Assembly: GCA_028753945.1 (NCBI GenBank) | Contig: JAPNXP010000016.1 | Span: 2,636,001-2,700,000, forward strand | Direction of reading: 5' to 3' | Length of the DNA: 64,000 nt | Source: Hexactinellida sp. DTS-2022 | Lineage: Eukaryota; Porifera; Hexactinellida | Part shown: piece by piece, positions 24,811 through 56,000 of the stretch | How positions within the stretch are numbered: the first letter of the stretch is position 1 | How the letters are laid out: each line of letters opens with the position of its first letter | The notes under the pieces: model-generated | Database searches by the model: none | The model's input: only the letters and a program-made list of their open reading frames with translations | What the model was told of the DNA's origin: nothing | Translations under genes and position numbers: made by a program

Positions 24811-27427
24811 ATGCAGCGTCGATATGATAGAACAGCAGACATTTCCCGTCTCCGCGCCCATTATCGAGATAGGCCTTATGAATTCAAACAATGCTGCAGC
24901 TTTATTTGGCACTGTACACTAACTTCTAAGTTAGGCTGTGGATCGTTTGGGTCCGTTTATTTCGGGTTTCATGACGTAGAAGGATTTGAAGTTGCGGTGA
25001 AAGAAATTCCGCGTGAATTATTCGCGCGCGATGAAAAGATAAAAATTAATCTTCAAAGAGAGGTTGAGATTCAGCAGCTCTTATCTTACTGTCCGTATGT
25101 AGTAAATCTGTTCCATGTCGAAGAGATCGCTGCTGGAATTGTTATGATTATGGAGGTAAGGCGTTATTGAATTACTATACTACAGTAGAACCTCGTTAGT
25201 ACGAACACGGTTAATACGAATTTCCGGATAAGACGAACAAACAGTTCCACAAAATCAGGCCCCTACAATGGCTATTTAATGGGTATTACTCCGGATAAAG
25301 CGAACATATTTTTACCGTCCGTTGGTGTTCGTATTAACGAGGTTCTACTGTAGTACGTACAGTAGAACCTCGTTAGTACGGATATCAAGGGACTGTTAAA
25401 ATGCGTTCGTCTTATCCGGAATTCGTATTAAGCAATGTTATTTTTATTGAATGGCTTTGAAGGGGACTGAAAAGTGTTCGTATTAATTAATCTGAATTTC
25501 GTATTAGCCGTGTTCGTACTAACGAAGTTCTACTTTAGCCTATTTTAGCTTTTTGCAAGATAAAATTTTTCCTATTTAGAGCTAATTTTAGATCTGATTT
25601 TCTCTAAAACTTATTCAAATTATGTAATATTTAATTTAACTAAAACCGACCAATCATTCGTTTTCTTTTGTAATTGCTAACATCATCTGTTATAATGTTA
25701 TTGATGGAAACTCTATTTTTAGTACAGATTAGTTTACATGTTGTGAACCCGTTTAATTTGGCGATTAATCTTTTGTTAATTTACTGCTTTTTTTGGTCAC
25801 ATAACCATATTCGTGTTTCAAAGTTTTGTATACTTATGGTTTTATGCCCACGTGTTAATTAGTAATCAAGAGAAAAATCTATATTATTTTGTTCGTTTTA
25901 TTATCAGTTTAATTTATTCCATTTGTTACAGTTCTGTGACACAGATTTGGAACAATACTTGAAGACTCATAAATTCACCGAAACACAAATAAAAAGTTTT
26001 CTCAAGCAACTATCAATTGGAGTTAAAGCCATGCATGACCAAGGTACCTACATAGGTTCTATAGACACTTTAATTATACGTATTTAGTTAAGATTACGTT
26101 GTGAAAGTTAGTATACATTTCAAGCATTTTTTGTAGAAACTTTCAACTTATTTTGCTTAGTAGAAATAACTAATATTAATGGGGGAATTTGTAAGTTATT
26201 ATTTCTAATATTAATTGCATTTATGGATATTCGTCAGCGATTCGAATAAAAATGTTCTGAGTAGATTTAACACTAATGAGAGCAAATTTTATGAGCGATT
26301 AATTGTGTAATTTCCTTGTTAGTTCTTCATAGAAGGGAAAGTTTATTTCTTGTAATATTGTAGAAATATGTGCAGATAATTTATTTGTTATTCGAACTTA
26401 AATAATTGGCTGTCTAAAAAGTTCTTTAATATTCTAAATACAGTAGACTCTGTTAATAGGAACACCAGGGGACCGTAGAAATATGTTCGTATTACTCGGA
26501 ATTCGTATTAACCGGAGTCACTTGCATGCATTTGTATAGGCTAGGGGAATTAAACCTTGTACTCCTTAACCGATATTTCCCTTATCCGTGTTCCCATTAA
26601 CGAGAGTCCATTGTATAATATATTAAAACCTTTAGAAAGTGAACACCCTGGGGACCAGCCAAAACATTCACTTTTGAGAGGTTTTTCATGATTTATCATA
26701 ACGTGTGTCTAAAGCAAAGGGGAAATTTGGGACCGAGAAAATGTGTTCATATTTTGGAGTTGTTCATTTCTTGGAGTTGTTCACTTTTGGAGGTTTACTG
26801 TATAATACAGTATTACTACATAGTACATATATTATTATGTTTTATAATTAACATTCCTTAGGGATTGTGCATAGAGATTTGAAACCACAGAACATTCTAC
26901 TAAAGCTCTACTGCACAGATATATTTGAGATTAAAATAGCTGATTTCGGATATTCCCGACATTACTTGAAGGGGGAAGGAATTAAGAACGTTATAGACAT
27001 GAACTCAGTGGCAGGGACCCCAGTGTTTATGGCCCCAGAGGCGTTATATTGTGTCGTCCTGCTAGGAGGACATTATGACCACACGGTTGATATGTGGAGT
27101 GTGGGGGCTCTGCTTTATAGGGTGCTGGTTGGGAAATGCGGATTCTTTCTGTTCTGTGATAAGGGCCTGCCTGGGACGATACAGAAAGTTATTCCGATAC
27201 TGAAGAATAAGGGGGATGCTATTGCTTTTGAGGTTAGTTCTGTTGTTGTTGTTGTTGTTGTTGTTTAGACGTATTATTTACTATATATCGGTCAAAAATA
27301 TTTATTTTTAGAGTATTGATAAGGTTATTTATTTTTGAACATGAAAATTCACTTTTACGAAACTGGGTTTTATATTGAAAATGTATTAGCCGATATATAA
27401 GTAAGCCTTACAATAATAAATATTATT

Positions 27428-31736: not shown

Positions 31737-31916
31737 GGCTAGGGCAGTCGTTCCCAACATGGTTTAATTAATCCGCTGAAATTAGTATTAGGGTTCAATG
31801 GGAGGGGTTTTACGTAATGTTTGGTATTTGCTATATATTATATCCACGGTTGAAATAGGTTGGGAATCACTGGACTAGAGGAATTAAACCTTGTGCTCAT
31901 TAACCGTATTTTCCCT
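31725..31916 (+). mobile_element. P1b MITE remnant at the satellite border
   Basis: GCATACATTTGTATAGGCTA, then (after the insertion 31745-31872) GGAATTAAACCTTGTGCTC and TTAACCGTATTTTCCC follow the P1b order of 26441-26613. The satellite begins where the P1b right end should stand. Confidence 0.75.
31745..31872. mobile_element. hAT-like MITE (CAGTCGTTCCCAAC) nested in P1b
   Basis: Ends CAGTCGTTCCCAAC and GTTGGGAATCACTG are inverted repeats with mismatches, of the widespread hAT type. Flanks GGCTAGGG (31737-31744) and GACTAGAG (31873-31880) are an 8-bp duplication with two later changes. The uninterrupted site GGCTAGGGGAATTAAACC is present at 26540-26560. 128 bp. Confidence 0.88.
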
Positions 31917-32094
31917 TTCAATATCTTATGGGTGAAAAATGAATTCCGAATCCTGTCGAAGGTCCACTGTAGTATAATGTGCTATAAATTGTACGCAAAA
32001 AGCGTACAATATTATACTAACAAGGTTCTTGCTTAGTATAATGTGCTATAAATAGAAAGGAAAATTGTTTCAATATGTTATTGGTGGATAAAAT
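31917..32094. repeat. Left edge and first monomer of the satellite
   Basis: The first unit is the most diverged (TTCAATATCTTATGGGTGAAA in place of TTCAATATGTTATTGGTGGATAA). It alone keeps two identical 20-base words TAGTATAATGTGCTATAAAT at 31970 and 32034. Greater divergence at the array edge is the known outcome of unequal exchange, which homogenises the centre. Confidence 0.8.
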
Positions 32095-35000
32095 GAATTC
32101 CGAATCCTGTCGAAAGTCCACTGTAGTATAATGTGCCACATATTGTACGCAAAAAGCGTACAATATTATATTAACAAGGTTCTTGCTTAGTAGAATGTGC
32201 AATAAATGGAAAGGAAAATTGTTTCAATATGTTATTGGTGGATAAAATGAATTCCGAATCCTGTCGAAGGTCCACTGTAGTATAATGTGCTATATATTGT
32301 ACGCAAAATGCGTACAATATTATACTAACAAGGTTTTTGCTTAGTAGAATGTGCTTTAAATGGAAAGGAAAATTGTTTCAATATGTTATTGGTGTATAAA
32401 ATGAATTCCGAATCCTGTCGAAGGTTCACTGTAGATTAATGTGCTATATAGTGTACGCAAAATGCGTACAATATTATACTAACAAGGTTCTTGCTTAGTA
32501 GAATGTGCTATAAATAGAAAGGAAAATGGTTTTAATATGTTATTGGTGGGTAAAATGAATTCCGAATCCTGTCGAAGGTCCACTGTAGTATAATGTGCCA
32601 CATATTGTACGCAAAAAGCGTACAATATTATATTAACAAGGTTCTTGCTTAGTAGAATGTGCAATAAATGGAAAGGAAAATTGTTTCAATATGTTATTGG
32701 TGGATAAAATGAATTCCGAATCCTGTCGAAGGTCCACTGTAGTATAATGTGCTATATAGTGTACGCAAAAAGCGTACAATATTATACTAACAAGGTTCTT
32801 GCTTAGTAGAATGTGCAATAAATGGAAAGGAAAATTGTTTCAATATGTTATTGGTGGATAAAATGAATTCCGAATCCTGTCGAAGGTTCACTGTAGTATA
32901 ATGTGCTATATAGTGTACGCAAAAAGCGTACAATATTATATTAAGAAGGTTCTTGCTTAGTAGAATGGGCAATAAATGGAAAGGAAAATTGTTTCAATAT
33001 GTTATTGGTGGATAAAATGAATTCCGAATCCTGTCGAAGGTCCACTGTAGTATAATGTGCTATATATTGTACGCAAAATGCGTACAATATTATACTAACA
33101 AGGTTCTTGCTTAGTAGAATGTGCTATAAATAGAAAGGAAAATGGTTTTAATATGTTATTGGTGGGTAAAATGAATTCCGAATCCTGTCGAAGGTCCACT
33201 GTAGTATAATGTGCCACATATTGTACGCAAAAAGCGTACAATATTATATTAACAAGGTTCTTGCTTAGTAGAATGTGCAATAAATGGAAAGGAAAATTGT
33301 TTCAATATGTTATTGGTGGATAAAATGAATTCCGAATCCTGTCGAAGGTCCACTGTAGTATAATGTGCTATATAGTGTACGCAAAAAGCGTACAATATTA
33401 TACTAACAAGGTTCTTGCTTAGTAGAATGTGCAATAAATGGAAAGGAAAATTGTTTCAATATGTTATTGGTGGATAAAATGAATTCCGAATCCTGTCGAA
33501 GGTTCACTGTAGTATAATGTGCTATATAGTGTACGCAAAAAGCGTACAATATTATATTAACAAGGTTCTTGCTTAGTAGAATGGGCAATAAATGGAAAGG
33601 AAAATTGTTTCAATATGTTATTGGTGGATAAAATGAATTCCGAATCCTGTCGAAGGTTCACTGTAGTATAATGTGCTATATAGTGTACGCAAAAAGCGTA
33701 CAATATTATATTAACAAGGTTCTTGCTTAGTAGAATGTGCAATAAATGGAAAGGAAAATTGTTTCAATATGTTATTGGTGGATAAAATGAATTCCGAATC
33801 CTGTCGAAAGTCCACTGTAGTATAATGTGCCACATATTGTACGCAAAAAGCGTACAATATTATATTAACAAGGTTCTTGCTTAGTAGAATGTGCAATAAA
33901 TGGAAAGGAAAATTGTTTCAATATGTTATTGGTGGATAAAATGAATTCCGAATCCTGTCGAAGGTTCACTGTAGTATAATGTGCTATATAGTGTACGCAA
34001 AAAGCGTACAATATTATATTAACAAGGTTCTTGCTTAGTAGAATGGGCAATAAATGGAAAGGAAAATTGTTTCAATATGTTATTGGTGGATAAAATGAAT
34101 TCCGAATCCTGTCGAAGGTCCACTGTAGTATAATGTGCTATATATTGTACGCAAAATGCGTACAATATTATACTAACAAGGTTTTTGCTTAGTAGAATGT
34201 GCTTTAAATGGAAAGGAAAATTGTTTCAATATGTTATTGGTGTATAAAATGAATTCCGAATCCTGTCGAAGGTTCACTGTAGATTAATGTGCTATATAGT
34301 GTACGCAAAATGCGTACAATATTATACTAACAAGGTTCTTGCTTAGTAGAATGTGCTATAAATAGAAAGGAAAATGGTTTTAATATGTTATTGGTGGGTA
34401 AAATTAATTCCGAATCCTGTCGAAGGTCCACTGTAGATTAATGTGCTACATATTGTACGCAAAATGCGTACAATATTATACTAACAAGGTTCTTGCTTAG
34501 TAGAATGTGCTATAAATAGAAAGGAAAATTGTTTCAATATGTTATTGGTGGATAAAATGAATTCCGAATCCTGTCGAAGGTTCACTGTAGTATAATGTGC
34601 TATATAGTGTACGCAAAAAGCGTACAATATTATATTAACAAGGTTCTTGCTTAGTAGAATGTGCAATAAATGGAAAGGAAAATTGTTTCAATATGTTATT
34701 GGTGGATAAAATGAATTCCGAATCCTGTCGAAGGTTCACTGTAGTATAATGTGCTATATAGTGTACGCAAAAAGCGTACAATATTATATTAACAAGGTTC
34801 TTGCTTAGTAGAATGGGCAATAAATGGAAAGGAAAATTGTTTCAATATGTTATTGGTGGATAAAATGAATTCCGAATCCTGTCGAAGGTCCACTGTAGTA
34901 TAATGTGCTATATATTGTACGCAAAATGCGTACAATATTATACTAACAAGGTTTTTGCTTAGTAGAATGTGCTTTAAATGGAAAGGAAAATTGTTTCAAT

Positions 35001-38000
35001 ATGTTATTGGTGTATAAAATGAATTCCGAATCCTGTCGAAGGTTCACTGTAGATTAATGTGCTATATAGTGTACGCAAAATGCGTACAATATTATACTAA
35101 CAAGGTTCTTGCTTAGTAGAATGTGCTATAAATAGAAAGGAAAATGGTTTTAATATGTTATTGGTGGGTAAAATGAATTCCGAATCCTGTCGAAGGTCCA
35201 CTGTAGTATAATGTGCCACATATTGTACGCAAAAAGCGTACAATATTATATTAACAAGGTTCTTGCTTAGTAGAATGTGCAATAAATGGAAAGGAAAATT
35301 GTTTCAATATGTTATTGGTGGATAAAATGAATTCCGAATCCTGTCGAAGGTCCACTGTAGATTAATGTGCTACATATTGTACGCAAAATGCGTACAATAT
35401 TATACTAACAAGGTTCTTGCTTAGTAGAATGTGCTATAAATAGAAAGGAAAATGGTTTCAATATGTTATTGGTGGGTAAAATGAATTCCGAATCCTGTCG
35501 AAGGTCCACTGTAGTATAATGTGCCACATATTGTACGCAAAATGCGTACAATATTATACTAACAAGGTTCTTGCTTAGTAGAATGTGCTATAAATTGAAA
35601 TGAAAATTGTTTCAATATGTTATTGGTGTATAAAATGAATTCCGAATCCTGTCGAAGGTCCACTGTAGTATAATGTGCTATATAGTGTACGCAAAAAGCG
35701 TACAATATTATATTAACAAGGTTCTTGCTTAGTAGAATGTGCAATAAATGGAAAGGAAAATTGTTTCAATATGTTATTGGTGGATAAAATGAATTCCGAA
35801 TCCTGTCGAAAGTCCACTGTAGTATAATGTGCCACATATTGTACGCAAAATGCGTACAATATTATACTAACAAGGTTCTTGCTTAGTAGAATGTGCTATA
35901 AATTGAAATGAAAATTGTTTCAATATGTTATTGGTGTATAAAATGAATTCCGAATCCTGTCGAAGGTTCACTGTAGTATAATGTGCTATATAGTGTACGC
36001 AAAAAGCGTACAATATTATATTAACAAGGTTCTTGCTTAGTAGAATGTGCAATAAATGGAAAGGAAAATTGTTTCAATATGTTATTGGTGGATAAAATGA
36101 ATTCCGAATCCTGTCGAAGGTTCACTGTAGTATAATGTGCTATATAGTGTACGCAAAAAGCGTACAATATTATATTAACAAGGTTCTTGCTTAGTAGAAT
36201 GGGCAATAAATGGAAAGGAAAATTGTTTCAATATGTTATTGGTGGATAAAATGAATTCCGAATCCTGTCGAAGGTCCACTGTAGTATAATGTGCTATATA
36301 GTGTACGCAAAAAGCGTACAATATTATATTAACAAGGTTCTTGCTTAGTAGAATGTGCAATAAATGGAAAGGAAAATTGTTTCAATATGTTATTGGTGGA
36401 TAAAATGAATTCCGAATCCTGTCGAAGGTCCACTGTAGTATAATGTGCTATATATTGTACGCAAAATGCGTACAATATTATATTAACAAGGTTCTTGCTT
36501 AGTAGAATGGGCAATAAATGGAAAGGAAAATTGTTTCAATATGTTATTGGTGGATAAAATGAATTCCGAATCCTGTCGAAGGTCCACTGTAGTATAATGT
36601 GCTATATATTGTACGCAAAATGCGTACAATATTATATTAACAAGGTTCTTGCTTAGTAGAATGGGCAATAAATGGAAAGGAAAATTGTTTCAATATGTTA
36701 TTGGTGGATAAAATGAATTCCGAATCCTGTCGAAGGTCCACTGTAGTATAATGTGCTATAAATTGTACGCAAAAAGCGTACAATATTATATTAACAAGGT
36801 TCTTGCTTAGTAGAATGTGCAATAAATGGAAAGGAAAATTGTTTCAATATGTTATTGGTGGATAAAATGAATTCCGAATCCTGTCGAAGGTCCACTGTAG
36901 TATAATGTGCTATATATTGTACGCAAAATGCGTACAATATTATACTAACAAGGTTCTTGCTTAGTAGAATGTGCTATAAATGGAAAGGAAAATTGTTTCA
37001 ATATGTTATTGGTGGATAAAATGAATTCCGAATCCTGTCGAAGGTCCACTGTAGTATAATGTGCTATATAGTGTACGCAAAATGCGTACAATATTATACT
37101 AACAAGGTTCTTGCTTAGTAGAATGTGCTATAAATTGAAATGAAAATTGTTTCAATATGTTATTGGTGTATAAAATGAATTCCGAATCCTGTCGAAGGTC
37201 CACTGTAGTATAATGTGCTATATAGTGTACGCAAAAAGCGTACAATATTATATTAACAAGGTTCTTGCTTAGTAGAATGTGCAATAAATGGAAAGGAAAA
37301 TTGTTTCAATATGTTATTGGTGGATAAAATGAATTCCGAATCCTGTCGAAAGTCCACTGTAGTATAATGTGCCACATATTGTACGCAAAATGCGTACAAT
37401 ATTATACTAACAAGGTTCTTGCTTAGTAGAATGTGCTATAAATTGAAATGAAAATTGTTTCAATATGTTATTGGTGTATAAAATGAATTCCGAATCCTGT
37501 CGAAGGTTCACTGTAGTATAATGTGCTATATAGTGTACGCAAAAAGCGTACAATATTATATTAACAAGGTTCTTGCTTAGTAGAATGTGCAATAAATGGA
37601 AAGGAAAATTGTTTCAATATGTTATTGGTGGATAAAATGAATTCCGAATCCTGTCGAAGGTTCACTGTAGTATAATGTGCTATATAGTGTACGCAAAAAG
37701 CGTACAATATTATATTAACAAGGTTCTTGCTTAGTAGAATGGGCAATAAATGGAAAGGAAAATTGTTTCAATATGTTATTGGTGGATAAAATGAATTCCG
37801 AATCCTGTCGAAGGTCCACTGTAGTATAATGTGCTATATAGTGTACGCAAAAAGCGTACAATATTATATTAACAAGGTTCTTGCTTAGTAGAATGTGCAA
37901 TAAATGGAAAGGAAAATTGTTTCAATATGTTATTGGTGGATAAAATGAATTCCGAATCCTGTCGAAGGTCCACTGTAGTATAATGTGCTATATATTGTAC

Positions 38001-41000
38001 GCAAAATGCGTACAATATTATATTAACAAGGTTCTTGCTTAGTAGAATGGGCAATAAATGGAAAGGAAAATTGTTTCAATATGTTATTGGTGGATAAAAT
38101 GAATTCCGAATCCTGTCGAAGGTCCACTGTAGTATAATGTGCTATATATTGTACGCAAAATGCGTACAATATTATATTAACAAGGTTCTTGCTTAGTAGA
38201 ATGGGCAATAAATGGAAAGGAAAATTGTTTCAATATGTTATTGGTGGATAAAATGAATTCCGAATCCTGTCGAAGGTCCACTGTAGTATAATGTGCTATA
38301 AATTGTACGCAAAAAGCGTACAATATTATATTAACAAGGTTCTTGCTTAGTAGAATGTGCAATAAATGGAAAGGAAAATTGTTTCAATATGTTATTGGTG
38401 GATAAAATGAATTCCGAATCCTGTCGAAGGTCCACTGTAGTATAATGTGCTATATATTGTACGCAAAATGCGTACAATATTATACTAACAAGGTTCTTGC
38501 TTAGTAGAATGTGCTATAAATGGAAAGGAAAATTGTTTCAATATGTTATTGGTGGATAAAATGAATTCCGAATCCTGTCGAAGGTCCACTGTAGTATAAT
38601 GTGCTATATAGTGTACGCAAAATGCGTACAATATTATACTAACAAGGTTCTTGCTTAGTAGAATGTGCTATAAATGGAAAGGAAAATTGTTTCAATATGT
38701 TATTGGTGGATAAAATGAATTCCGAATCCTGTCGAAAGTCCACTGTAGTATAATGTGCCACATATTGTACGCAAAAAGCGTACAATATTATATTAACAAG
38801 GTTCTTGCTTAGTAGAATGTGCAATAAATGGAAAGGAAAATTGTTTCAATATGTTATTGGTGGATAAAATGAATTCCGAATCCTGTCGAAGGTTCACTGT
38901 AGTATAATGTGCTATATAGTGTACGCAAAAAGCGTACAATATTATATTAACAATGTTCTTGCTTAGTAGAATGGGCAATAAATGGAAAGGAAAATTGTTT
39001 CAATATGTTATTGGTGGATAAAATGAATTCCGAATCCTGTCGAAGGTCCACTGTAGTATAATGTGCTATATAGTGTACGCAAAAAGCGTACAATATTATA
39101 TTAACAAGGTTCTTGCTTAGTAGAATGTGCAATAAATGGAAAGGAAAATTGTTTCAATATGTTATTGGTGGATAAAATGAATTCCGAATCCTGTCGAAGG
39201 TCCACTGTAGTATAATGTGCTATATATTGTACGCAAAATGCGTACAATATTATACTAACAAGGTTCTTGCTTAGTAGAATGTGCTATAAATGGAAAGGAA
39301 AATTGTTTCAATATGTTATTGGTGGATAAAATGAATTCCGAATCCTGTCGAAGGTCCACTGTAGTATAATGTGCTATATAGTGTACGCAAAAAGCGTACA
39401 ATATTATATTAACAAGGTTCTTGCTTAGTAGAATGTGCAATAAATGGAAAGGAAAATTGTTTCAATATGTTATTGGTGGATAAAATGAATTCCGAATCCT
39501 GTCGAAAGTCCACTGTAGTATAATGTGCCACATATTGTACGCAAAAAGCGTACAATATTATATTAACAAGGTTCTTGCTTAGTAGAATGTGCAATAAATG
39601 GAAAGGAAAATTGTTTCAATATGTTATTGGTGGATAAAATGAATTCCGAATCCTGTCGAAGGTCCACTGTAGTATAATGTGCTATATAGTGTACGCAAAA
39701 AGCGTACAATATTATATTAACAAGGTTCTTGCTTAGTAGAATGTGCTATAAATAGAAAGGAAAATGGTTTTAATATGTTATTGGTGGGTAAAATGAATTC
39801 CGAATCCTGTCGAAGGTCCACTGTAGTATAATGTGCCACATATTGTACGCAAAAAGCGTACAATATTATATTAACAAGGTTCTTGCTTAGTAGAATGTGC
39901 AATAAATGGAAAGGAAAATTGTTTCAATATGTTATTGGTGGATAAAATGAATTCCGAATCCTGTCGAAGGTTCACTGTAGTATAATGTGCTATATAGTGT
40001 ACGCAAAAAGCGTACAATATTATATTAACAAGGTTCTTGCTTAGTAGAATGGGCAATAAATGGAAAGGAAAATTGTTTCAATATGTTATTGGTGTATAAA
40101 ATGAATTCCGAATCCTGTCGAAGGTTCACTGTAGATTAATGTGCTATATAGTGTACGCAAAATGCGTACAATATTATACTAACAAGGTTCTTGCTTAGTA
40201 GAATGTGCTATAAATAGAAAGGAAAATGGTTTTAATATGTTATTGGTGTATAAAATGAATTCCGAATCCTGTCGAAGGTCCACTGTAGATTAATGTGCTA
40301 CATATTGTACGCAAAATGCGTACAATATTATACTAACAAGGTTCTTGCTTAGTAGAATGGGCAATAAATGGAAAGGAAAATTGTTTCAATATGTTATTGG
40401 TGGATAAAATGAATTCCGAATCCTGTCGAATGTCCACTGTAGTATAATGTGCCACATATTGTACGCAAAAAGCGTACAATATTATATTAACAAGGTTCTT
40501 GCTTAGTAGAATGTGCAATAAATGGAAAGGAAAATTGTTTCAATATGTTATTGGTGGATAAAATGAATTCCGAATCCTGTCGAAGGTTCACTGTAGTATA
40601 ATGTGCTATATAGTGTACGCAAAAAGCGTACAATATTATATTAACAAGGTTCTTGCTTAGTAGAATGGGCAATAAATGGAAAGGAAAATTGTTTCAATAT
40701 GTTATTGGTGGATAAAATGAATTCCGAATCCTGTCGAAGGTTCACTGTAGTATAATGTGCTATATAGTGTACGCAAAAAGCGTACAATATTATATTAACA
40801 AGGTTCTTGCTTAGTAGAATGGGCAATAAATGGAAAGGAAAATTGTTTCAATATGTTATTGGTGGATAAAATGAATTCCGAATCCTGTCGAAGGTTCACT
40901 GTAGATTAATGTGCTATATAGTGTACGCAAAATGCGTACAATATTATACTAACAAGGTTCTTGCTTAGTAGAATGTGCTATAAATAGAAAGGAAAATGGT

Positions 41001-44000
41001 TTTAATATGTTATTGGTGTATAAAATGAATTCCGAATCCTGTCGAAGGTCCACTGTAGATTAATGTGCTACATATTGTACGCAAAATGCGTACAATATTA
41101 TACTAACAAGGTTCTTGCTTAGTAGAATGTGCTATAAATAGAAAGGAAAATTGTTTCAATATGTTATTGGTGGATAAAATGAATTCCGAATCCTGTCGAA
41201 GGTTCACTGTAGTATAATGTGCTATATAGTGTACGCAAAAAGCGTACAATATTATATTAACAAGGTTCTTGCTTAGTAGAATGGGCAATAAATGGAAAGG
41301 AAAATTGTTTCAATATGTTATTGGTGGATAAAATGAATTCCGAATCCTGTCGAAGGTTCACTGTAGATTAATGTGCTATATAGTGTACGCAAAATGCGTA
41401 CAATATTATACTAACAAGGTTCTTGCTTAGTAGAATGTGCTATAAATAGAAAGGAAAATGGTTTTAATATGTTATTGGTGTATAAAATGAATTCCGAATC
41501 CTGTCGAAGGTCCACTGTAGATTAATGTGCTACATATTGTACGCAAAATGCGTACAATATTATACTAACAAGGTTCTTGCTTAGTAGAATGTGCTATAAA
41601 TAGAAAGGAAAATTGTTTCAATATGTTATTGGTGGATAAAATGAATTCCGAATCCTGTCGAAAGTCCACTGTAGTATAATGTGCCACATATTGTACGCAA
41701 AAAGCGTACAATATTATATTAACAAGGTTCTTGCTTAGTAGAATGTGCAATAAATGGAAAGGAAAATTGTTTCAATATGTTATTGGTGGATAAAATGAAT
41801 TCCGAATCCTGTCGAAGGTTCACTGTAGTATAATGTGCTATATAGTGTACGCAAAAAGCGTACAATATTATATTAACAATGTTCTTGCTTAGTAGAATGG
41901 GCAATAAATGGAAAGGAAAATTGTTTCAATATGTTATTGGTGGATAAAATGAATTCCGAATCCTGTCGAAGGTCCACTGTAGTATAATGTGCTATATAGT
42001 GTACGCAAAAAGCGTACAATATTATATTAACAAGGTTCTTGCTTAGTAGAATGTGCAATAAATGGAAAGGAAAATTGTTTCAATATGTTATTGGTGGATA
42101 AAATGAATTCCGAATCCTGTCGAAGGTCCACTGTAGTATAATGTGCTATATATTGTACGCAAAATGCGTACAATATTATACTAACAAGGTTCTTGCTTAG
42201 TAGAATGTGCTATAAATGGAAAGGAAAATTGTTTCAATATGTTATTGGTGGATAAAATGAATTCCGAATCCTGTCGAAGGTCCACTGTAGTATAATGTGC
42301 TATATAGTGTACGCAAAAAGCGTACAATATTATATTAACAAGGTTCTTGCTTAGTAGAATGTGCAATAAATGGAAAGGAAAATTGTTTCAATATGTTATT
42401 GGTGGATAAAATGAATTCCGAATCCTGTCGAAAGTCCACTGTAGTATAATGTGCCACATATTGTACGCAAAAAGCGTACAATATTATATTAACAAGGTTC
42501 TTGCTTAGTAGAATGTGCAATAAATGGAAAGGAAAATTGTTTCAATATGTTATTGGTGGATAAAATGAATTCCGAATCCTGTCGAAGGTCCACTGTAGTA
42601 TAATGTGCTATATAGTGTACGCAAAAAGCGTACAATATTATATTAACAAGGTTCTTGCTTAGTAGAATGTGCTATAAATAGAAAGGAAAATGGTTTTAAT
42701 ATGTTATTGGTGGGTAAAATGAATTCCGAATCCTGTCGAAGGTCCACTGTAGTATAATGTGCCACATATTGTACGCAAAAAGCGTACAATATTATATTAA
42801 CAAGGTTCTTGCTTAGTAGAATGTGCAATAAATGGAAAGGAAAATTGTTTCAATATGTTATTGGTGGATAAAATGAATTCCGAATCCTGTCGAAGGTTCA
42901 CTGTAGTATAATGTGCTATATAGTGTACGCAAAAAGCGTACAATATTATATTAACAAGGTTCTTGCTTAGTAGAATGGGCAATAAATGGAAAGGAAAATT
43001 GTTTCAATATGTTATTGGTGTATAAAATGAATTCCGAATCCTGTCGAAGGTTCACTGTAGATTAATGTGCTATATAGTGTACGCAAAATGCGTACAATAT
43101 TATACTAACAAGGTTCTTGCTTAGTAGAATGTGCTATAAATAGAAAGGAAAATGGTTTTAATATGTTATTGGTGTATAAAATGAATTCCGAATCCTGTCG
43201 AAGGTCCACTGTAGATTAATGTGCTACATATTGTACGCAAAATGCGTACAATATTATACTAACAAGGTTCTTGCTTAGTAGAATGGGCAATAAATGGAAA
43301 GGAAAATTGTTTCAATATGTTATTGGTGGATAAAATGAATTCCGAATCCTGTCGAATGTCCACTGTAGTATAATGTGCCACATATTGTACGCAAAAAGCG
43401 TACAATATTATATTAACAAGGTTCTTGCTTAGTAGAATGTGCAATAAATGGAAAGGAAAATTGTTTCAATATGTTATTGGTGGATAAAATGAATTCCGAA
43501 TCCTGTCGAAGGTTCACTGTAGTATAATGTGCTATATAGTGTACGCAAAAAGCGTACAATATTATATTAACAAGGTTCTTGCTTAGTAGAATGGGCAATA
43601 AATGGAAAGGAAAATTGTTTCAATATGTTATTGGTGGATAAAATGAATTCCGAATCCTGTCGAAGGTTCACTGTAGTATAATGTGCTATATAGTGTACGC
43701 AAAAAGCGTACAATATTATATTAACAAGGTTCTTGCTTAGTAGAATGGGCAATAAATGGAAAGGAAAATTGTTTCAATATGTTATTGGTGGATAAAATGA
43801 ATTCCGAATCCTGTCGAAGGTTCACTGTAGATTAATGTGCTATATAGTGTACGCAAAATGCGTACAATATTATACTAACAAGGTTCTTGCTTAGTAGAAT
43901 GTGCTATAAATAGAAAGGAAAATGGTTTTAATATGTTATTGGTGTATAAAATGAATTCCGAATCCTGTCGAAGGTCCACTGTAGATTAATGTGCTACATA

Positions 44001-47000
44001 TTGTACGCAAAATGCGTACAATATTATACTAACAAGGTTCTTGCTTAGTAGAATGTGCTATAAATAGAAAGGAAAATTGTTTCAATATGTTATTGGTGGA
44101 TAAAATGAATTCCGAATCCTGTCGAAGGTTCACTGTAGTATAATGTGCTATATAGTGTACGCAAAAAGCGTACAATATTATATTAACAAGGTTCTTGCTT
44201 AGTAGAATGGGCAATAAATGGAAAGGAAAATTGTTTCAATATGTTATTGGTGGATAAAATGAATTCCGAATCCTGTCGAAAGTCCACTGTAGTATAATGT
44301 GCCACATATTGTACGCAAAAAGCGTACAATATTATATTAACAAGGTTCTTGCTTAGTAGAATGTGCAATAAATGGAAAGGAAAATTGTTTCAATATGTTA
44401 TTGGTGGATAAAATGAATTCCGAATCCTGTCGAAGGTTCACTGTAGTATAATGTGCTATATAGTGTACGCAAAAAGCGTACAATATTATATTAACAAGGT
44501 TCTTGCTTAGTAGAATGGGCAATAAATGGAAAGGAAAATTGTTTCAATATGTTATTGGTGGATAAAATGAATTCCGAATCCTGTCGAAGGTCCACTGTAG
44601 TATAATGTGCTATATATTGTACGCAAAATGCGTACAATATTATACTAACAAGGTTTTTGCTTAGTAGAATGTGCTTTAAATGGAAAGGAAAATTGTTTCA
44701 ATATGTTATTGGTGTATAAAATGAATTCCGAATCCTGTCGAAGGTTCACTGTAGATTAATGTGCTATATAGTGTACGCAAAATGCGTACAATATTATACT
44801 AACAAGGTTCTTGCTTAGTAGAATGTGCAATAAATGGAAAGGAAAATTGTTTCAATATGTTATTGGTGGATAAAATGAATTCCGAATCCTGTCGAAGGTC
44901 CACTTTAGTATAATGTGCTATATAGTGTACGCAAAAAGCGTACAATATTATATTAACAAGGTTCTTGCTTAGTAGAATGGGCAATAAATGGAAAGGAAAA
45001 TTGTTTCAATATGTTATTGGTGGATAAAATGAATTCCGAATCCTGTCGAAGGTCCACTGTAGTATAATGTGCTATATAGTGTACGCAAAAAGCGTACAAT
45101 ATTATACTAACAAGGTTTTTGCTTAGTAGAATGTGCTTTAAATGGAAAGGAAAATTGTTTCAATATGTTATTGGTGTATAAAATGAATTCCGAATCCTGT
45201 CGAAGGTTCACTGTAGATTAATGTGCTATATAGTGTACGCAAAATGCGTACAATATTATACTAACAAGGTTCTTGCTTAGTAGAATGTGCAATAAATGGA
45301 AAGGAAAATTGTTTCAATATGTTATTGGTGGATAAAATGAATTCCGAATCCTGTCGAAGGTTCACTGTAGATTAATGTGCTATATAGTGTACGCAAAATG
45401 CGTACAATATTATACTAACAAGGTTCTTGCTTAGTAGAATGTGCTATAAATAGAAAGGAAAATGGTTTTAATATGTTATTGGTGGGTAAAATGAATTCCG
45501 AATCCTGTCGAAGGTCCACTGTAGTATAATGTGCCACATATTGTACGCAAAAAGCGTACAATATTATATTAACAAGGTTCTTGCTTAGTAGAATGTGCAA
45601 TAAATGGAAAGGAAAATTGTTTCAATATGTTATTGGTGGATAAAATGAATTCCGAATCCTGTCGAAGGTCCACTGTAGATTAATGTGCTACATATTGTAC
45701 GCAAAATGCGTACAATATTATACTAACAAGGTTCTTGCTTAGTAGAATGTGCTATAAATAGAAAGGAAAATGGTTTCAATATGTTATTGGTGGGTAAAAT
45801 GAATTCCGAATCCTGTCGAAGGTCCACTGTAGTATAATGTGCCACATATTGTACGCAAAATGCGTACAATATTATACTAACAAGGTTCTTGCTTAGTAGA
45901 ATGTGCTATAAATTGAAAGGAAAATTGTTTCAATATGTTATTGGTGGATAAAATGAATTCCGAATCCTGTCGAAGGTCCACTGTAGTATAATGTGCTATA
46001 TAGTGTACGCAAAAAGCGTACAATATTATATTAACAAGGTTCTTGCTTAGTAGAATGTGCTATAAATGGAAAGGAAAATTGTTTCAATATGTTATTGGTG
46101 GATAAAATGAATTCCGAATCCTGTCGAAGGTCCACTGTAGTATAATGTGCTATATAGTGTACGCAAAAAGCGTACAATATTATATTAACAAGGTTCTTGC
46201 TTAGTAGAATGTGCAATAAATGGAAAGGAAAATTGTTTCAATATGTTATTGGTGGATAAAATGAATTCCGAATCCTGTCGAAGGTCCACTGTAGTATAAT
46301 GTGCTATATAGTGTACGCAAAAAGCGTACAATATTATATTAACAAGGTTCTTGCTTAGTAGAATGGGCAATAAATGGAAAGGAAAATTGTTTCAATATGT
46401 TATTGGTGGATAAAATGAATTCCGAATCCTGTCGAAGGTTCACTGTAGTATAATGTGCTATATAGTGTACGCAAAAAGCGTACAATATTATATTAACAAG
46501 GTTCTTGCTTAGTAGAATGGGCAATAAATGGAAAGGAAAATTGTTTCAATATGTTATTGGTGGATAAAATGAATTCCGAATCCTGTCGAAGGCCCACTGT
46601 AGATTAATGTGCTACATATTGTACGCAAAATGCGTACAATATTATACTAACAAGGTTCTTGCTTAGTAGAATGTGCTATAAATAGAAAGGAAAATGGTTT
46701 CAATATGTTATTGGTGGGTAAAATGAATTCCGAATCCTGTCGAAGGTCCACTGTAGTATAATGTGCCACATATTGTACGCAAAATGCGTACAATATTATA
46801 CTAACAAGGTTCTTGCTTAGTAGAATGTGCAATAAATGGAAAGGAAAATTGTTTCAATATGTTATTGGTGGATAAAATGAATTCCGAATCCTGTCGAAGG
46901 TTCACTGTAGTATAATGTGCTATATAGTGTACGCAAAAAGCGTACAATATTATATTAACAAGGTTCTTGCTTAGTAGAATGGGCAATAAATGGAAAGGAA

Positions 47001-50000
47001 AATTGTTTCAATATGTTATTGGTGGATAAAATGAATTCCGAATCCTGTCGAAGGTCCACTGTAGTATAATGTGCTATATATTGTACGCAAAATGCGTACA
47101 ATATTATACTAACAAGGTTTTTGCTTAGTAGAATGTGCTTTAAATGGAAATTAAAATTGTTTCAATATGTTATTGGTGTATAAAATGAATTCCGAATCCT
47201 GTCGAAGGTTCACTGTAGATTAATGTGCTATATAGTGTACGCAAAATGCGTACAATATTATACTAACAAGGTTCTTGCTTAGTAGAATGTGCTATAAATA
47301 GAAAGGAAAATGGTTTTAATATGTTATTGGTGTATAAAATGAATTCCGAATCCTGTCGAAGGTCCACTGTAGATTAATGTGCTACATATTGTACGCAAAA
47401 TGCGTACAATATTATACTAACAAGGTTCTTGCTTAGTAGAATGTGCTATAAATAGAAAGGAAAATTGTTTCAATATGTTATTGGTGGATAAAATGAATTC
47501 CGAATCCTGTCGAAGGTTCACTGTAGTATAATGTGCTATATAGTGTACGCAAAAAGCGTACAATATTATATTAACAAGGTTCTTTCTTAGTAGAATGGGC
47601 AATAAATGGAAAGGAAAATTGTTTCAATATGTTATTGGTGGATAAAATGAATTCCGAATCCTGTCGAAAGTCCACTGTAGTATAATGTGCCACATATTGT
47701 ACGCAAAAAGCGTACAATATTATATTAACAAGGTTCTTGCTTAGTAGAATGTGCAATAAATGGAAAGGAAAATTGTTTCAATATGTTATTGGTGGATAAA
47801 ATGAATTCCGAATCCTGTCGAAGGTCCACTGTAGTATAATGTGCTATATATTGTACGCAAAATGCGTACAATATTATACTAACAAGGTTTTTGCTTAGTA
47901 GAATGTGCTTTAAATGGAAATTAAAATTGTTTCAATATGTTATTGGTGTATAAAATGAATTCCGAATCCTGTCGAAGGTTCACTGTAGATTAATGTGCTA
48001 TATAGTGTACGCAAAATGCGTACAATATTATACTAACAAGGTTCTTGCTTAGTAGAATGTGCTATAAATAGAAAGGAAAATGGTTTTAATATGTTATTGG
48101 TGTATAAAATGAATTCCGAATCCTGTCGAAGGTCCACTGTAGATTAATGTGCTACATATTGTACGCAAAATGCGTACAATATTATACTAACAAGGTTCTT
48201 GCTTAGTAGAATGTGCTATAAATAGAAAGGAAAATTGTTTCAATATGTTATTGGTGGATAAAATGAATTCCGAATCCTGTCGAAGGTTCACTGTAGTATA
48301 ATGTGCTATATAGTGTACGCAAAAAGCGTACAATATTATATTAACAAGGTTCTTTCTTAGTAGAATGGGCAATAAATGGAAAGGAAAATTGTTTCAATAT
48401 GTTATTGGTGGATAAAATGAATTCCGAATCCTGTCGAAAGTCCACTGTAGTATAATGTGCCACATATTGTACGCAAAAAGCGTACAATATTATATTAACA
48501 AGGTTCTTGCTTAGTAGAATGTGCAATAAATGGAAAGGAAAATTGTTTCAATATGTTATTGGTGGATAAAATAAATTCCGAATCCTGTCGAAGGTTCACT
48601 GTAGTATAATGTGCTATATAGTGTACGCAAAAAGCGTACAATATTATATTAACAAGGTTCTTGCTTAGTAGAATGGGCAATAAATGGAAAGGAAAATTGT
48701 TTCAATATGTTATTGGTGGATAAAATGAATTCCGAATCCTGTCGAAGGTCCACTGTAGTATAATGTGCTATATATTGTACGCAAAATGCGTACAATATTA
48801 TACTAACAAGGTTTTTGCTTAGTAGAATGTGCTTTAAATGGAAAGGAAAATTGTTTCAATATGTTATTGGTGTATAAAATGAATTCCGAATCCTGTCGAA
48901 GGTTCACTGTAGATTAATGTGCTATATAGTGTACGCAAAATGCGTACAATATTATACTAACAAGGTTCTTGCTTAGTAGAATGTGCAACAAATGGAAAGG
49001 AAAATTGTTTCAATATGTTATTGGTGGATAAAATGAATTCCGAATCCTTCGAAGGTCCACTGTAGTATAATGTGCTATATAGTGTACGCAAAAAGCGTAC
49101 AATATTATATTTACAAGGTTTTTGCTTAGTAGAATGGGCAATAAATGGAAAGGAAAATTGTTTCAATATGTTATTGGTGGATAAAATGAATTCCGAATCC
49201 TGTCGAAGGTCCACTGTAGTATAATGTGCTATATAGTGTACGCAAAAAGCGTACAATATTATACTAACAAGGTTTTTGCTTAGTAGAATGTGCTTTAAAT
49301 GGAAAGGAAAATTGTTTCAATATGTTATTGGTGTATAAAATGAATTCCGAATCCTGTCGAAGGTTCACTGTAGATTAATGTGCTATATAGTGTACGCAAA
49401 ATGCGTACAATATTATACTAACAAGGTTCTTGCTTAGTAGAATGTGCAATAAATGGAAAGGAAAATTGTTTCAATATGTTATTGGTGGATAAAATGAATT
49501 CCGAATCCTGTCGAAGGTCCACTGTAGTATAATGTGCTATATAGTGTACGCAAAATGCGTACAATATTATACTAACAAGGTTCTTGCTTAGTAGAATGTG
49601 CTATAAATAGAAAGGAAAATGGTTTCAATATGTTATTGGTGGGTAAAATGAATTCCGAATCCTGTCGAAGGTCCACTGTAGTATAATGTGCCACATATTG
49701 TACGCAAAAAGCGTACAATATTATATTAACAAGGTTCTTGCTTAGTAGAATGTGCAATAAATGGAAAGGAAAATTGTTTCAATATGTTATTGGTGGATAA
49801 AATGAATTCCGAATCCTGTCGAAGGTCCACTGTAGATTAATGTGCTACATATTGTACGCAAAATGCGTACAATATTATACTAACAAGGTTCTTGCTTAGT
49901 AGAATGTGCTATAAATAGAAAGGAAAATGGTTTCAATATGTTATTGGTGGGTAAAATGAATTCCGAATCCTGTCGAAGGTCCACTGTAGTATAATGTGCC

Positions 50001-53000
50001 ACATATTGTACGCAAAATGCGTACAATATTATACTAACAAGGTTCTTGCTTAGTAGAATGTGCTATAAATTGAAAGGAAAATTGTTTCAATATGTTATTG
50101 GTGTATAAAATGAATTCCGAATCCTGTCGAAGGTCCACTGTAGTATAATGTGCCACATATTGTACGCAAAAAGCGTACAATATTATATTAACAAGGTTCT
50201 TGCTTAGTAGAATGTGCAATAAATGGAAAGGAAAATTGTTTCAATATGTTATTGGTGGATAAAATGAATTCCGAATCCTGTCGAAGGTTCACTGTAGTAT
50301 AATGTGCTATATAGTGTACGCAAAAAGCGTACAATATTATATTAACAAGGTTCTTGCTTAGTAGAATGGGCAATAAATGGAAAGGAAAATTGTTTCAATA
50401 TGTTATTGGTGGATAAAATGAATTCCGAATCCTGTCGAAGGTCCACTGTAGTATAATGTGCTATATAGTGTACGCAAAAAGCGTACAATATTATATTAAC
50501 AAGGTTCTTGCTTAGTAGAATGTGCAATAAATGGAAAGGAAAATTGTTTCAATATATTATTGGTGGATAAAATGAATTCCGAATCCTGTCGAAGGTCCAC
50601 TGTAGTATAATGTGCTATATATTGTACGCAAAATGCGTACAATATTATACTAACAAGGTTCTTGCTTAGTAGAATGTGCTATAAATGGAAAGGAAAATTG
50701 TTTCAATATGTTATTGGTGGATAAAATGAATTCCGAATCCTGTCGAAAGTCCACTGTAGTATAATGTGCCACATATTGTACGCAAAAAGCGTACAATATT
50801 ATATTAACAAGGTTCTTGCTTAGTAGAATGTGCAATAAATGGAAAGGAAAATTGTTTCAATATGTTATTGGTGGATAAAATGAATTCCGAATCCTGTCGA
50901 AGGTTCACTGTAGTATAATGTGCTATATAGTGTACGCAAAAAGCGTACAATATTATATTAACAAGGTTCTTGCTTAGTAGAATGTGCAATAAATGGAAAG
51001 GAAAATTGTTTCAATATGTTATTGGTGGATAAAATGAATTCCGAATCCTGTCGAAGGTCCACTGTAGTATAATGTGCTATATATTATACGCAAAATGCGT
51101 ACAATATTATACTAACAAGGTTCTTGCTTAGTAGAATGTGCTATAAATGGAAAGGAAAATTGTTTCAATATGTTATTGGTGGATAAAATGAATTCCGAAT
51201 CCTGTCGAAGGTCCACTGTAGTATAATGTGCTATATAGTGTACGCAAAAAGCGTACAATATTATATTAACAAGGTTCTTGCTTAGTAGAATGTGCAATAA
51301 ATGGAAAGGAAAATTGTTTCAATATGTTATTGGTGGATAAAATGAATTCCGAATCCTGTCGAAAGTCCACTGTAGTATAATGTGCCACATATTGTACGCA
51401 AAAAGCGTACAATATTATATTAACAAGGTTCTTGCTTAGTAGAATGTGCAATAAATGGAAAGGAAAATTGTTTCAATATGTTATTGGTGGATAAAATGAA
51501 TTCCGAATCCTGTCGAAGGTCCACTGTAGTATAATGTGCTATATAGTGTACGCAAAAAGCGTACAATATTATATTAACAAGGTTCTTGCTTAGTAGAATG
51601 TGCAATAAATGGAAAGGAAAATTGTTTCAATATGTTATTGGTGGATAAAATGAATTCCGAATCCTGTCGAAGGTTCACTGTAGTATAATGTGCTATATAG
51701 TGTACGCAAAAAGCGTACAATATTATATTAACAAGGTTCTTGCTTAGTAGAATGTGCAATAAATGGAAAGGAAAATTGTTTCAATATGTTATTGGTGGAT
51801 AAAATGAATTCCGAATCCTGTCGAAGGTTCACTGTAGTATAATGTGCTATATAGTGTACGCAAAAAGCGTACAATATTATATTAACAAGGTTCTTGCTTA
51901 GTAGAATGGGCAATAAATGGAAAGGAAAATTGTTTCAATATGTTATTGGTGGATAAAATGAATTCCGAATCCTGTCGAAGGTCCACTGTAGTATAATGTG
52001 CTATATATTGTACGCAAAATGCGTACAATATTATACTAACAAGGTTTTTGCTTAGTAGAATGTGCTTTAAATGGAAAGGAAAATTGTTTCAATATGTTAT
52101 TGGTGTATAAAATGAATTCCGAATCCTGTCGAAGGTTCACTGTAGATTAATGTGCTATATAGTGTACGCAAAATGCGTACAATATTATACTAACAAGGTT
52201 CTTGCTTAGTAGAATGTGCTATAAATAGAAAGGAAAATGGTTTTAATATGTTATTGGTGTATAAAATGAATTCCGAATCCTGTCGAAGGTCCACTGTAGA
52301 TTAATGTGCTACATATTGTACGCAAAATGCGTACAATATTATACTAACAAGGTTCTTGCTTAGTAGAATGTGCTATAAATAGAAAGGAAAATTGTTTCAA
52401 TATGTTATTGGTGGATAAAATGAATTCCGAATCCTGTCGAAGGTTCACTGTAGTATAATGTGCTATATAGTGTACGCAAAAAGCGTACAATATTATATTA
52501 ACAAGGTTCTTGCTTAGTAGAATGGGCAATAAATGGAAAGGAAAATTGTTTCAATATGTTATTGGTGGATAAAATGAATTCCTAATCCTGTCGAAAGTCC
52601 ACTGTAGTATAATGTGCCACATATTGTACGCAAAAAGCGTACAATATTATATTAACAAGGTTCTTGCTTAGTAGAATGTGCAATAAATGGAAAGGAAAAT
52701 TGTTTCAATATGTTATTGGTCGATAAAATGAATTCCGAATCCTGTCGAAGGTTCACTGTAGTATAATGTGCTATATAGTGTACGCAAAAAGCGTACAATA
52801 TTATATTAACAAGGTTCTTGCTTAGTAGAATGGGCAATAAATGGAAAGGAAAATTGTTTCAATATGTTATTGGTGGATAAAATGAATTCCGAATCCTGTC
52901 GAAGGTTCACTGTAGATTAATGTGCTATATATTGTACGCAAAATGCGTACAATATTATACTAACAAGGTTCTTGCTTAGTAGAATGTGCTATAAATAGAA

Positions 53001-56000
53001 AGGAAAATGGTTTTAATATGTTATTGGTGGGTAAAATGAATTCCGAATCCTGTCGAAGGTCCACTGTAGTATAATGTGCCACATATTGTACGCAAAAAGC
53101 GTACAATATTATATTAACAAGGTTCTTGCTTAGTAGAATGTGCAATAAATGGAAAGGAAAATTGTTTCAATATGTTATTGGTGGATAAAATGAATTCCGA
53201 ATCCTGTCGAAGGTCCACTGTAGATTAATGTGCTACATATTGTACGCAAAATGCGTACAATATTATACTAACAAGGTTCTTGCTTAGTAGAATGTGCTAT
53301 AAATAGAAAGGAAAATGGTTTCAATATGTTATTGGTGGGTAAAATGAATTCCGAATCCTGTCGAAGGTCCACTGTAGTATAATGTGCTATATATTGTACG
53401 CAAAATGCGTACAATATTATACTAACAAGGTTCTTGCTTAGTAGAATGTGCTATAAATTGAAAGGAAAATTGTTTCAATATGTTATTGGTGTATAAAATG
53501 AATTCCGAATCCTGTCGAAGGTCCACTGTAGATTAATGTGCTACATATTGTACGCAAAATGCGTACAATATTATACTAACAAGGTTCTTGCTTAGTAGAA
53601 TGTGCTATAAATAGAAAGGAAAATTGTTTCAATATGTTATTGGTGGATAAAATGAATTCCGAATCCTGTCGAAGGTTCACTGTAGTATAATGTGCTATAT
53701 AGTGTACGCAAAAAGCGTACAATATTATATTAACAAGGTTCTTGCTTAGTAGAATGGGCAATAAATGGAAAGGAAAATTGTTTCAATATGTTATTGGTGG
53801 ATAAAATGAATTCCGAATCCTGTCGAAAGTCCACTGTAGTATAATGTGCCACATATTGTACGCAAAAAGCGTACAATATTATATTAACAAGGTTCTTGCT
53901 TAGTAGAATGTGCAATAAATGGAAAGGAAAATTGTTTCAATATGTTATTGGTGGATAAAATGAATTCCGAATCCTGTCGAAGGTTCACTGTAGTATAATG
54001 TGCTATATAGTGTACGCAAAAAGCGTACAATATTATATTAACAAGGTTCTTGCTTAGTAGAATGGGCAATAAATGGAAAGGAAAATTGTTTCAATATGTT
54101 ATTGGTGGATAAAATGAATTCCGAATCCTGTCGAAGGTCCACTGTAGTATAATGTGCTATATATTGTACGCAAAATGCGTACAATATTATACTAACAAGG
54201 TTTTTGCTTAGTAGAATGTGCTTTAAATGGAAAGGAAAATTGTTTCAATATGTTATTGGTGTATAAAATGAATTCCGAATCCTGTCGAAGGTTCACTGTA
54301 GATTAATGTGCTATATAGTGTACGCAAAATGCGTCCAATATTATACTAACAAGGTTCTTGCTTAGTAGAATGTGCAATAAATGGAAAGGAAAATTGTTTC
54401 AATATGTTATTGGTGGATAAAATGAATTCCGAATCCTGTCGAAGGTCCACTGTAGTATAATGTGCTATATAGTGTACGCAAAAAGCGTACAATATTATAT
54501 TAACAAGGTTCTTGCTTAGTAGAATGGGCAATAAATGGAAAGGAAAATTGTTTCAATATGTTATTGGTGGATAAAATGAATTCCGAATCCTGTCGAAGGT
54601 TCACTGTAGATTAATGTGCTATATAGTGTACGCAAAATGCGTCCAATATTATACTAACAAGGTTCTTGCTTAGTAGAATGTGCAATAAATGGAAAGGAAA
54701 ATTGTTTCAATATGTTATTGGTGGATAAAATGAATTCCGAATCCTGTCGAAGGTCCACTGTAGTATAATGTGCTATATATTGTACCCAAAATGCGTACAA
54801 TATTATACTAACAAGGTTTTTGCTTAGTAGAATGTGCTTTAAATGGAAAGGAAAATTGTTTCAATATGTTATTGGTGTATAAAATGAATTCCGAATCCTG
54901 TCGAAGGTTCACTGTAGATTAATGTGCTATATATTGTACGCAAAATGCGTACAATATTATACTAACAAGGTTTTTGCTTAGTAGAATGTGCTTTAAATGG
55001 AAAGGAAAATTGTTTCAATATGTTATTGGTGTATAAAATGAATTCCGAATCCTGTCGAAGGTTCACTGTAGATTAATGTGCTATATAGTGTACGCAAAAT
55101 GCGTACAATATTATACTAACAAGGTTCTTGCTTAGTAGAATGTGCTATAAATAGAAAGGAAAATGGTTTTAATATGTTATTGGTGGATAAAATGAATTCC
55201 GAATCCTGTCGAAGGTCCACTGTAGTATAATGTGCCACATATTGTAAGCAAAAAGCGTACAATATTATATTAACAAGGTTCTTGCTTAGTAGAATGTGCT
55301 ATAAATGGAAAGGAAAATTGTTTCAATATGTTATTGGTGGGTAAAATGAATTCCGAATCCTGTCGAAGGTCCACTGTAGTATAATGTGCCACATATTGTA
55401 AGCAAAAAGCGTACAATATTATATTAACAAGGTTCTTGCTTAGTAGAATGTGCTATAAATAGAAAGGAAAATGGTTTCAATATGTTATTGGTGGGTAAAA
55501 TGAATTCCGAATCCTGTCGAAGGTCCACTGTAGTATAATGTGCCACATATTGTACGCAAAATGCGTACAATATTATACTAACAAGGTTCTTGCTTAGTAG
55601 AATGTGCTATAAATTGAAAGGAAAATTGTTTCAATATGTTATTGGTGTATAAAATGAATTCCGAATCCTGTCGAAGGTCCACTGTAGTATAATGTGCTAT
55701 ATAGTGTACGCAAAAAGCGTACAATATTATATTAACAAGGTTCTTGCTTAGTAGAATGTGCAATAAATGGAAAGGAAAATTGTTTCAATATGTTATTGGT
55801 GGGTAAAATGAATTCCGAATCCTGTCGAAGGTCCACTGTAGATTAATGTGCTACATATTGTACGCAAAATGCGTACAATATTATACTAACAAGGTTCTTG
55901 CTTAGTAGAATGTGCTATAAATAGAAAGGAAAATGGTTTCAATATGTTATTGGTGGGTAAAATGAATTCCGAATCCTGTCGAAGGTCCACTGTAGTATAA

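Follow-up and report, generated by a model that had tools for sequence, protein, structure and literature searches.

An 18-base motif that recurs in a satellite array of Hexactinellida sp. DTS-2022 resembles the CENP-B box, the site bound by the centromere protein CENP-B, and an earlier note on this DNA had read it in that light. The window analyzed here is the whole stretch C8:2636001-2700000 (64,000 bases), and the genome searched comprises 112.4 Mb in 18 contigs, with a G+C content of 36.7% over 40 dispersed loci. The 18-mer is not a CENP-B box: its spacing is wrong, the likeness of the C8 monomer to the whole box is at chance, its constancy shows no excess, and it is changed or broken in sister arrays. 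The satellite probably derives from pogo-like miniature inverted-repeat transposable elements (MITEs), of which the motif would be a relic.

The 18-base motif compared with the CENP-B box

The array and the first copy of the motif occupy the following positions of the window.

31916..64000, plus strand: 154-bp satellite array (Tandem Repeats Finder, TRF, period 154, 208.4 copies, 95% matches)
31944..31961, minus strand: first copy of the reported motif, CTTCGACAGGATTCGGAA, read as a remnant of a pogo terminal inverted repeat (TIR; the TTCG half) that would have been fused to a MITE-internal remnant (the ATTCGGAATTC half)

Genome matches and a reading of its right end place the end of the array beyond the window at about C8:2765637, for a total of ~97.7 kb; between 2700001 and 2763999 it is known from search matches and 3-kb match loci, without read-through. 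The forward strand at 31944-31961 reads TTCCGAATCCTGTCGAAG, the reverse complement of which is CTTCGACAGGATTCGGAA, in agreement with the location first reported. The assertion that the motif is present in every monomer holds for 17 of its 18 bases (TTCGACAGGATTCGGAA, 207 copies) and does not hold for the exact 18-mer (179 copies). Within the 32,085-base part of the array that lies in the window, 207 sites have at most one mismatch to the 18-mer and 208 have at most two. The exact form is found in 177 of the 207 C8 monomers, the variable base being the first C (86%). Genome-wide, the exact 18-mer occurs 535 times; among the matches listed, 99 are on C8 and the single forward one is at the edge of the C2 array.

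The motif was also said to lie in the most constant part of the monomer. This is literally correct, as it falls within the longest run without a polymorphic site (26 bp), although a comparison of monomers reveals no excess conservation over the neighboring bases. Eighteen of the 154 positions are variable in C8, and random placement of 18 sites equals the observed run in 54% of trials (P 0.54); this site test uses 154-bp monomers only, as does the 86% figure for the first C (205 of 207 intervals). Selection on the motif, as deduced from its constancy within the array, was rejected on this basis.

The CENP-B box requires nine core bases, NTTCGNNNNANNCGGGN, with a 4-base spacer, according to the portion of PMC4904201 available. 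At that spacing, at least three of the nine core bases mismatch in all 12 array consensuses, and a CENP-B box in its canonical form is rejected. With a 5-base spacer, as the earlier note had observed, the C8 consensus has one core mismatch, and so does that of C2. No exact canonical core exists in the window's part of the array, and a single C8 monomer (1/207) comes within one mismatch of the canonical core through a one-base deletion in the spacer. When C8 monomers are shuffled and a spacer of 3, 4, or 5 is accepted, 27% reach at most two mismatches and 2.1% at most one, the latter being the figure most favorable to the CENP-B reading, with the spacer selected post hoc.

The C8 monomer agrees with the human box at 10 of its 17 bases, versus a mean of 9.9 after shuffling (P 0.72). 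The consensuses of C2, C9, and C12 score 12/17 at the motif site (P about 0.03 each), and two of six C4 monomers score 13/17. In C9, C12, and C4, most of the likeness to the human box comes from the first half, where CTTCGTTGG matches it, while the corresponding half in C2 is CTTCGTTAG. The pogo-like terminal repeat itself contains a near form of CTTCGTTGG, namely CCTCGTTAG. In addition, the four MITE copies tested harbor CENP-B-box-like sites at canonical spacing with 8/9 core bases, and the genome contains 744 exact canonical cores versus 236 of the reversed pattern. Among the matches listed, all of which are on C1, no canonical core falls in the C1 array region (9,814,904-10,065,546); thus, as far as seen, canonical boxes accompany dispersed elements and not the satellite.

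Related arrays were found by pattern searches on at least 10 of the 18 contigs, each with its own consensus, and the monomers of this satellite superfamily range from 153 to 179 bp. The sister arrays on C1, C2, C4, C9, C10, C12, C13, C17, and C18 were read in pieces of ~0.9-3 kb. Monomers were cut at a palindrome with at most four changes (five for C4), a procedure that favors palindrome counts and omits partial edge monomers, including the copy with the exact motif on C2 (L001:1501). The consensuses use the first 60 monomers at most per array (60/205 for C8; 5-18 in the remaining arrays), and only monomers of 150-182 bp were kept, which excludes one of 739 bp in C1.

31989..32009, no strand assigned: palindrome TTGTACGCAAAAAGCGTACAA, within the stretch most conserved between arrays; may be a binding site or a hairpin

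The exact motif is absent from all 108 complete monomers sampled outside C8 (102 plus 6 from C4); one copy does stand at the C2 array edge. The box with the shifted spacer, allowing one mismatch, is present in 205 of 207 C8 monomers, in 5 of 8 from C2, and in none of the 100 other complete monomers (94 plus 6 from C4). A block of 22 bases that ends with TTCG is missing from the consensuses of C10, C13, and distal C18, which retain ACG of it. In conservation between arrays, the motif window ranks 119/154 (12 rows, with C18b omitted as near-identical to C18 and C1 split into two types) or 126/154 (11 rows), below the monomer average. The motif was therefore rejected as the best conserved block.

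Matches to MITE ends in the satellite monomers

Pogo-like MITEs are frequent around the array. The left flank (31.9 kb) contains 20 pogo-like TIR sites, several as facing pairs, with facing TIRs at 5924/6079, 25183/25350, and 2950/3111; in keeping with a TA target duplication, TA adjoins both ends in the copies at 5924 and 25183 (by eye). A 28-mer from the MITE end (TIR) has 617 exact copies in the genome, with pairs 99 bp apart among the matches listed.

5924..6079, plus strand: pogo-like MITE with TIR CAGTAGAACCTCGTTAG, the reference for the satellite comparison
25183..25350, plus strand: second MITE copy with facing TIRs; the TIR of another MITE follows 10 bp on (25360)
26441..26613, plus strand: uninterrupted MITE copy, of the same type as the MITE interrupted at the array edge and the reference for it
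4614..5018, plus strand: short tandem of another pogo-like MITE (period 153, 2.7 copies), the units of which end GCTCTACTG and restart CAGTAGAGCCTCG across TATA

The 153-bp period of this last tandem is almost equal to that of the satellite. Tandem MITE pieces also occur elsewhere (L101-L103), as 99-bp pairs on C1 and C2 and as a C1 triplet spaced by 100 and 83 bp; these MITEs therefore do become tandem in this genome. A search for an autonomous partner in 40 loci of ~3 kb (of 91 domain matches, some in the same gene) yielded none: approximate TIR matches were present in three of the loci and a facing pair in none, and more distant ends would be missed.

The C8 monomer has two sites resembling the MITE end in the same orientation, 64 bp apart or 90 bp the other way round.

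31951..31972, minus strand: TIR-like site 1, CTACAGTGGACCTTCGACAGGA, an ungapped match to CTACAGTAGAACCTCGTTAGTA; 16/22 to the MITE end here and 19/22 in the C2 consensus
32015..32036, minus strand: TIR-like site 2, oriented as site 1; 16/22 in the C8 consensus and 18/22 in the C9 and C12 consensuses

In 8 of 12 consensuses (C1a, C1b, C2, C8, C9, C12, C17, and C18c), the two highest-scoring 22-mer matches share their orientation and lie at equivalent positions, and five of six C4 monomers have the same two sites at 13-17/22. Across the arrays, the MITE end is represented once or twice per monomer by direct, partly degenerate copies, the decay of which varies from array to array. Among 3000 shuffles of the C2 consensus, the best 22-mer match reaches at least 16 in 11, 18 once, and 19 never. 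Further MITE-end matches are CTACAGTAGACCTTCGTTAG in C2 (18/20) and GAGAACCTCGTTAGTA in the C9, C10, C12, C13, and C18 consensuses. The best local alignment to one MITE has a shuffle P of 0.0005-0.01 for C1a, C2, C8, C9, C10, C12, and C17 and of 0.048 for C18c; with 300 shuffles, P is 0.003-0.007 for C13, C18, and C18b and 0.39 for C1b. Terminal-repeat sequence of a MITE is thus found inside the monomer, with the exception of C1b and, more weakly, in C18c. The sole match to the MITE interior, found in C8 only, is ATTCGGAATTC..ACCAATA..ATTGAAA in MITE order (P 0.004), and it follows the TIR-like site.

Two modules are variably present in the monomers: a 22-bp block that includes part of TIR-like site 1 and a ~24-bp block after site 2. 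Arrays with one module have monomers near 153-158 bp, and those with both have monomers near 173-179 bp.

The earlier remark that a pogo-like end lies beside the motif is borne out by pieces of pogo-like MITE at both edges of the C8 array.

31875..31917, plus strand: left remnant of a pogo-like MITE, equal to positions 102-145 of the copy starting at 26439
C8:2765650-2765683, no strand assigned: right MITE remnant, positions 144-178 of the MITE, 12 bases past the last satellite base

On the simplest reading, the C8 array would split one MITE. The MITE on the left also seems to carry an insertion with inverted ends CAGTCGTTCCCAAC...GTTGGGAATCACTG (31745-31872, by eye).

Origin of the satellite and rival explanations

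The satellite superfamily would have arisen from tandemly arranged, partly deleted pogo-like MITEs. The TTCG of the motif would come from the MITE end (ACCTCGTTAG to ACCTTCGTTAG), and CGGAATTC would come from the MITE interior, joined to TTCG when internal sequence was lost. On this view, the "extra spacer base" would result from the fusion and would not mark a modified CENP-B box. The arrays would have been homogenized separately, by unequal exchange or a similar process, which would explain why the motif seems constant in C8 and differs or is broken elsewhere. The tie between the motif and pogo ends that had been suggested is thus upheld in a different sense, through the apparent descent of the satellite from pogo-like MITEs; the sequence of events, the deletion-fusion, and the mechanism of amplification are what we infer from the sequences.

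Several observations weigh against this origin. The TIR matches are short (15-20 bp), their P values are not independent because the arrays are related, and C1b has no match (P 0.39) while that of C18c is weak. The palindrome and the 24-bp module were not seen in any dispersed element, the only aimed search being the reading of one locus (L099), and the source of about half the monomer is thus untraced. None of the short tandem MITEs (4614-5018, L101-L103) is directly ancestral to the satellite monomer, and no joining intermediate is found among them. In a MITE-rich genome, chance could account for the MITE pieces that flank the C8 array on both sides; 12 unassigned bases separate the satellite from the right piece, and no target-site duplication is recognized at the C8 array edges. 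The C2 array begins about 55 bp beside a MITE and not within one (by eye).

In favor of an ordinary satellite of other origin, in which the TIR-like blocks and the CENP-B-like motif are chance products of AT-rich DNA, each match is short, the related arrays amount to few independent cases, and C1b and C18c match poorly. Such an origin is rather unlikely in view of the paired TIR matches, alike in orientation and position in 8 of 12 consensuses, which reach 19/22, a score unattained in 3000 shuffles of the C2 consensus, and of the MITE pieces that lie at both C8 edges and in tandem elsewhere. A functional site is also conceivable, such that TTCG-N5-A-NN-CGGA in each monomer would be the target of a pogo-derived host protein that organizes centromeric chromatin. 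The search for pogo-derived DNA-binding proteins found many pogo-type frames with CENP-B-like DNA-binding domains, as anticipated: 23 matches to CENP-B_N and 68 to HTH_Tnp_Tc5, with some genes counted in both, and a 543-amino-acid frame that matches the human CENP-B DNA-binding domain (1HLV, E 7.5e-14). However, all three long pogo frames examined combine HTH_Tnp_Tc5 with a transposase-like DDE_1 domain (CENP-B_N is present in one), and each retains what we take to be the aspartates expected of the pogo catalytic triad (by eye). They look like transposases rather than evident domesticated proteins; a domesticated CENP-B-like protein may be among the remaining pogo-type frames. The one core mismatch at the 5-base spacer is consistent with a functional site, as are the 12/17 of C2, C9, and C12 and the 13/17 of two of six C4 monomers, which are in the range of nematode box-like motifs (10-12/17 to the human box in the part of PMC3694981 available). 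A functional site is nonetheless highly unlikely, as canonical spacing costs every consensus at least three core bases, C8 is at chance, the shifted-spacer form is missing from the 100 sampled complete monomers outside C8 and C2, and TTCG is broken in C10, C13, and distal C18. A variant in which the pogo-born satellite arose before or beside domestication predicts that a genomic pogo-type protein still binds the array, because the satellite carries pogo terminal sequences. This is decidedly improbable; if true, it would parallel how CENP-B may have met its satellite, and the dispersed CENP-B-box cores (744 exact) would be ordinary transposon sites of the same protein family.

The best conserved 18-bp window between arrays lies in the palindrome TTGTACGC-N5-GCGTACAA (0.977 versus a mean of 0.869, rank 1/154). 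Were selection acting on any block, the palindrome would be a better candidate than the CENP-B-like motif. The arrays could accordingly be a centromeric or pericentromeric satellite with the palindrome as its conserved element (a putative binding site or non-B structure) and the CENP-B-like motif irrelevant, a tentative proposal to which we give somewhat less than an even chance. It is compatible with descent from MITEs; both can hold, and their odds need not sum to one. Besides the rank of the palindrome, the proposal is favored by the presence of arrays on at least 10 of 18 contigs, spanning tens of kb by match span on C1, C8, C9, C10, C17, and C18. However, the palindrome excess is of moderate size, and its significance varies with the null chosen (25 bp: P 0.0004, 0.014, and 0.054; 18 bp: P 0.017 and 0.17). 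Inexact palindromes occur in 8 of 13 monomers from C1, in 5 of 6 from C4, and in some from other arrays, despite cutting that favors the palindrome. Arrays also lie near both ends of C18, and on 9 of 10 contigs the places seen are within about 0.42 Mb of a contig end, with which a subtelomeric satellite is also compatible. The C1 array is internal on its contig. An acrocentric centromere and a subtelomere would both fit the array positions.

Known systems and further repeats

Satellites of several invertebrates are reported to contain CENP-B-box-like motifs, which were interpreted as possible binding sites. The sister arrays permit a test of such a motif, which it fails, while its likely source, the ends of pogo-type MITEs, is in the same genome. 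A concrete alternative is thus that CENP-B-box-like satellite motifs can be transposon relics. The present motif shares with the CENP-B box of primate alpha satellite a TTCG start and a CGG; it differs in that spacing and core bases fail, it is not kept in sister arrays, and the candidate binders are pogo-type proteins. That the CENP-B box resembles pogo/Tigger ends was proposed long ago (Kipling and Warburton 1997, as cited in the available parts of PMC6947457 and PMC7325037), and this genome, with its satellites, CENP-B-like binders, and pogo elements, is suited to examining that link. As far as the accessible sections of PMC3694981 and PMC9673304 describe them, Meloidogyne satellites with a CENP-B box-like Box 1 are likewise from an invertebrate and have similar human-box scores. 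Box 1, however, is the block conserved between divergent satellites, whereas the motif here is below the monomer average.

MITE-derived satellites include Xstir (Xenopus), HindIII (oysters), and BIV160 (bivalves), according to excerpts of PMC6947457, and in all of them a short non-autonomous DNA transposon, whole or in part, has turned into a tandem repeat. In contrast to these accounts, the likely source here is pogo-like, many monomers have two direct copies of the terminal repeat, and at least 10 of 18 contigs are involved. The Xenopus miDNA4 is a Tc1/mariner MITE with an internal satellite, and arrays inside it are thought able to grow into satellites (PMC12628747, in the part available). 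It has in common with the present case a MITE of Tc1/mariner type linked to a satellite array; here, unlike in that description, the monomer seems to include the ends of the MITE itself. Among the CC0, CC BY, and CC BY-SA papers listed, no title or abstract opening describes a satellite derived from pogo-like MITEs, and none of those listed for sponge centromeres is on that subject by its title.

C18 has two different arrays near opposite ends (232 kb and 6.53-6.60 Mb), the distal one being closely similar to the C13 array, with matches on both strands. Degenerate satellite-like sequence occurs at an isolated place, C1:15542 (L099, by eye). The sequence GGCTGGGAACGAAGGGAGTGATAGAATT... is common to 12 of 18 contig starts (first 200 bases, L075-L092) and is probably a subtelomeric satellite. 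No telomere repeat is seen by eye in the first 200 bases of the 18 contigs, of which C2 starts with N. Directly past the right MITE remnant of the C8 array (L074:1688-2380), a coding stretch matches Pfam ATG11 (PF10377, E 1.1e-7). In the left flank, the TRF list gives two arrays of a 15-bp unit, AAGTGGACTATTAGA, at 15356-15567 and 15751-15858, and a tandem repeat with a 56-bp unit (6.2 copies) lies at 22838-23188.
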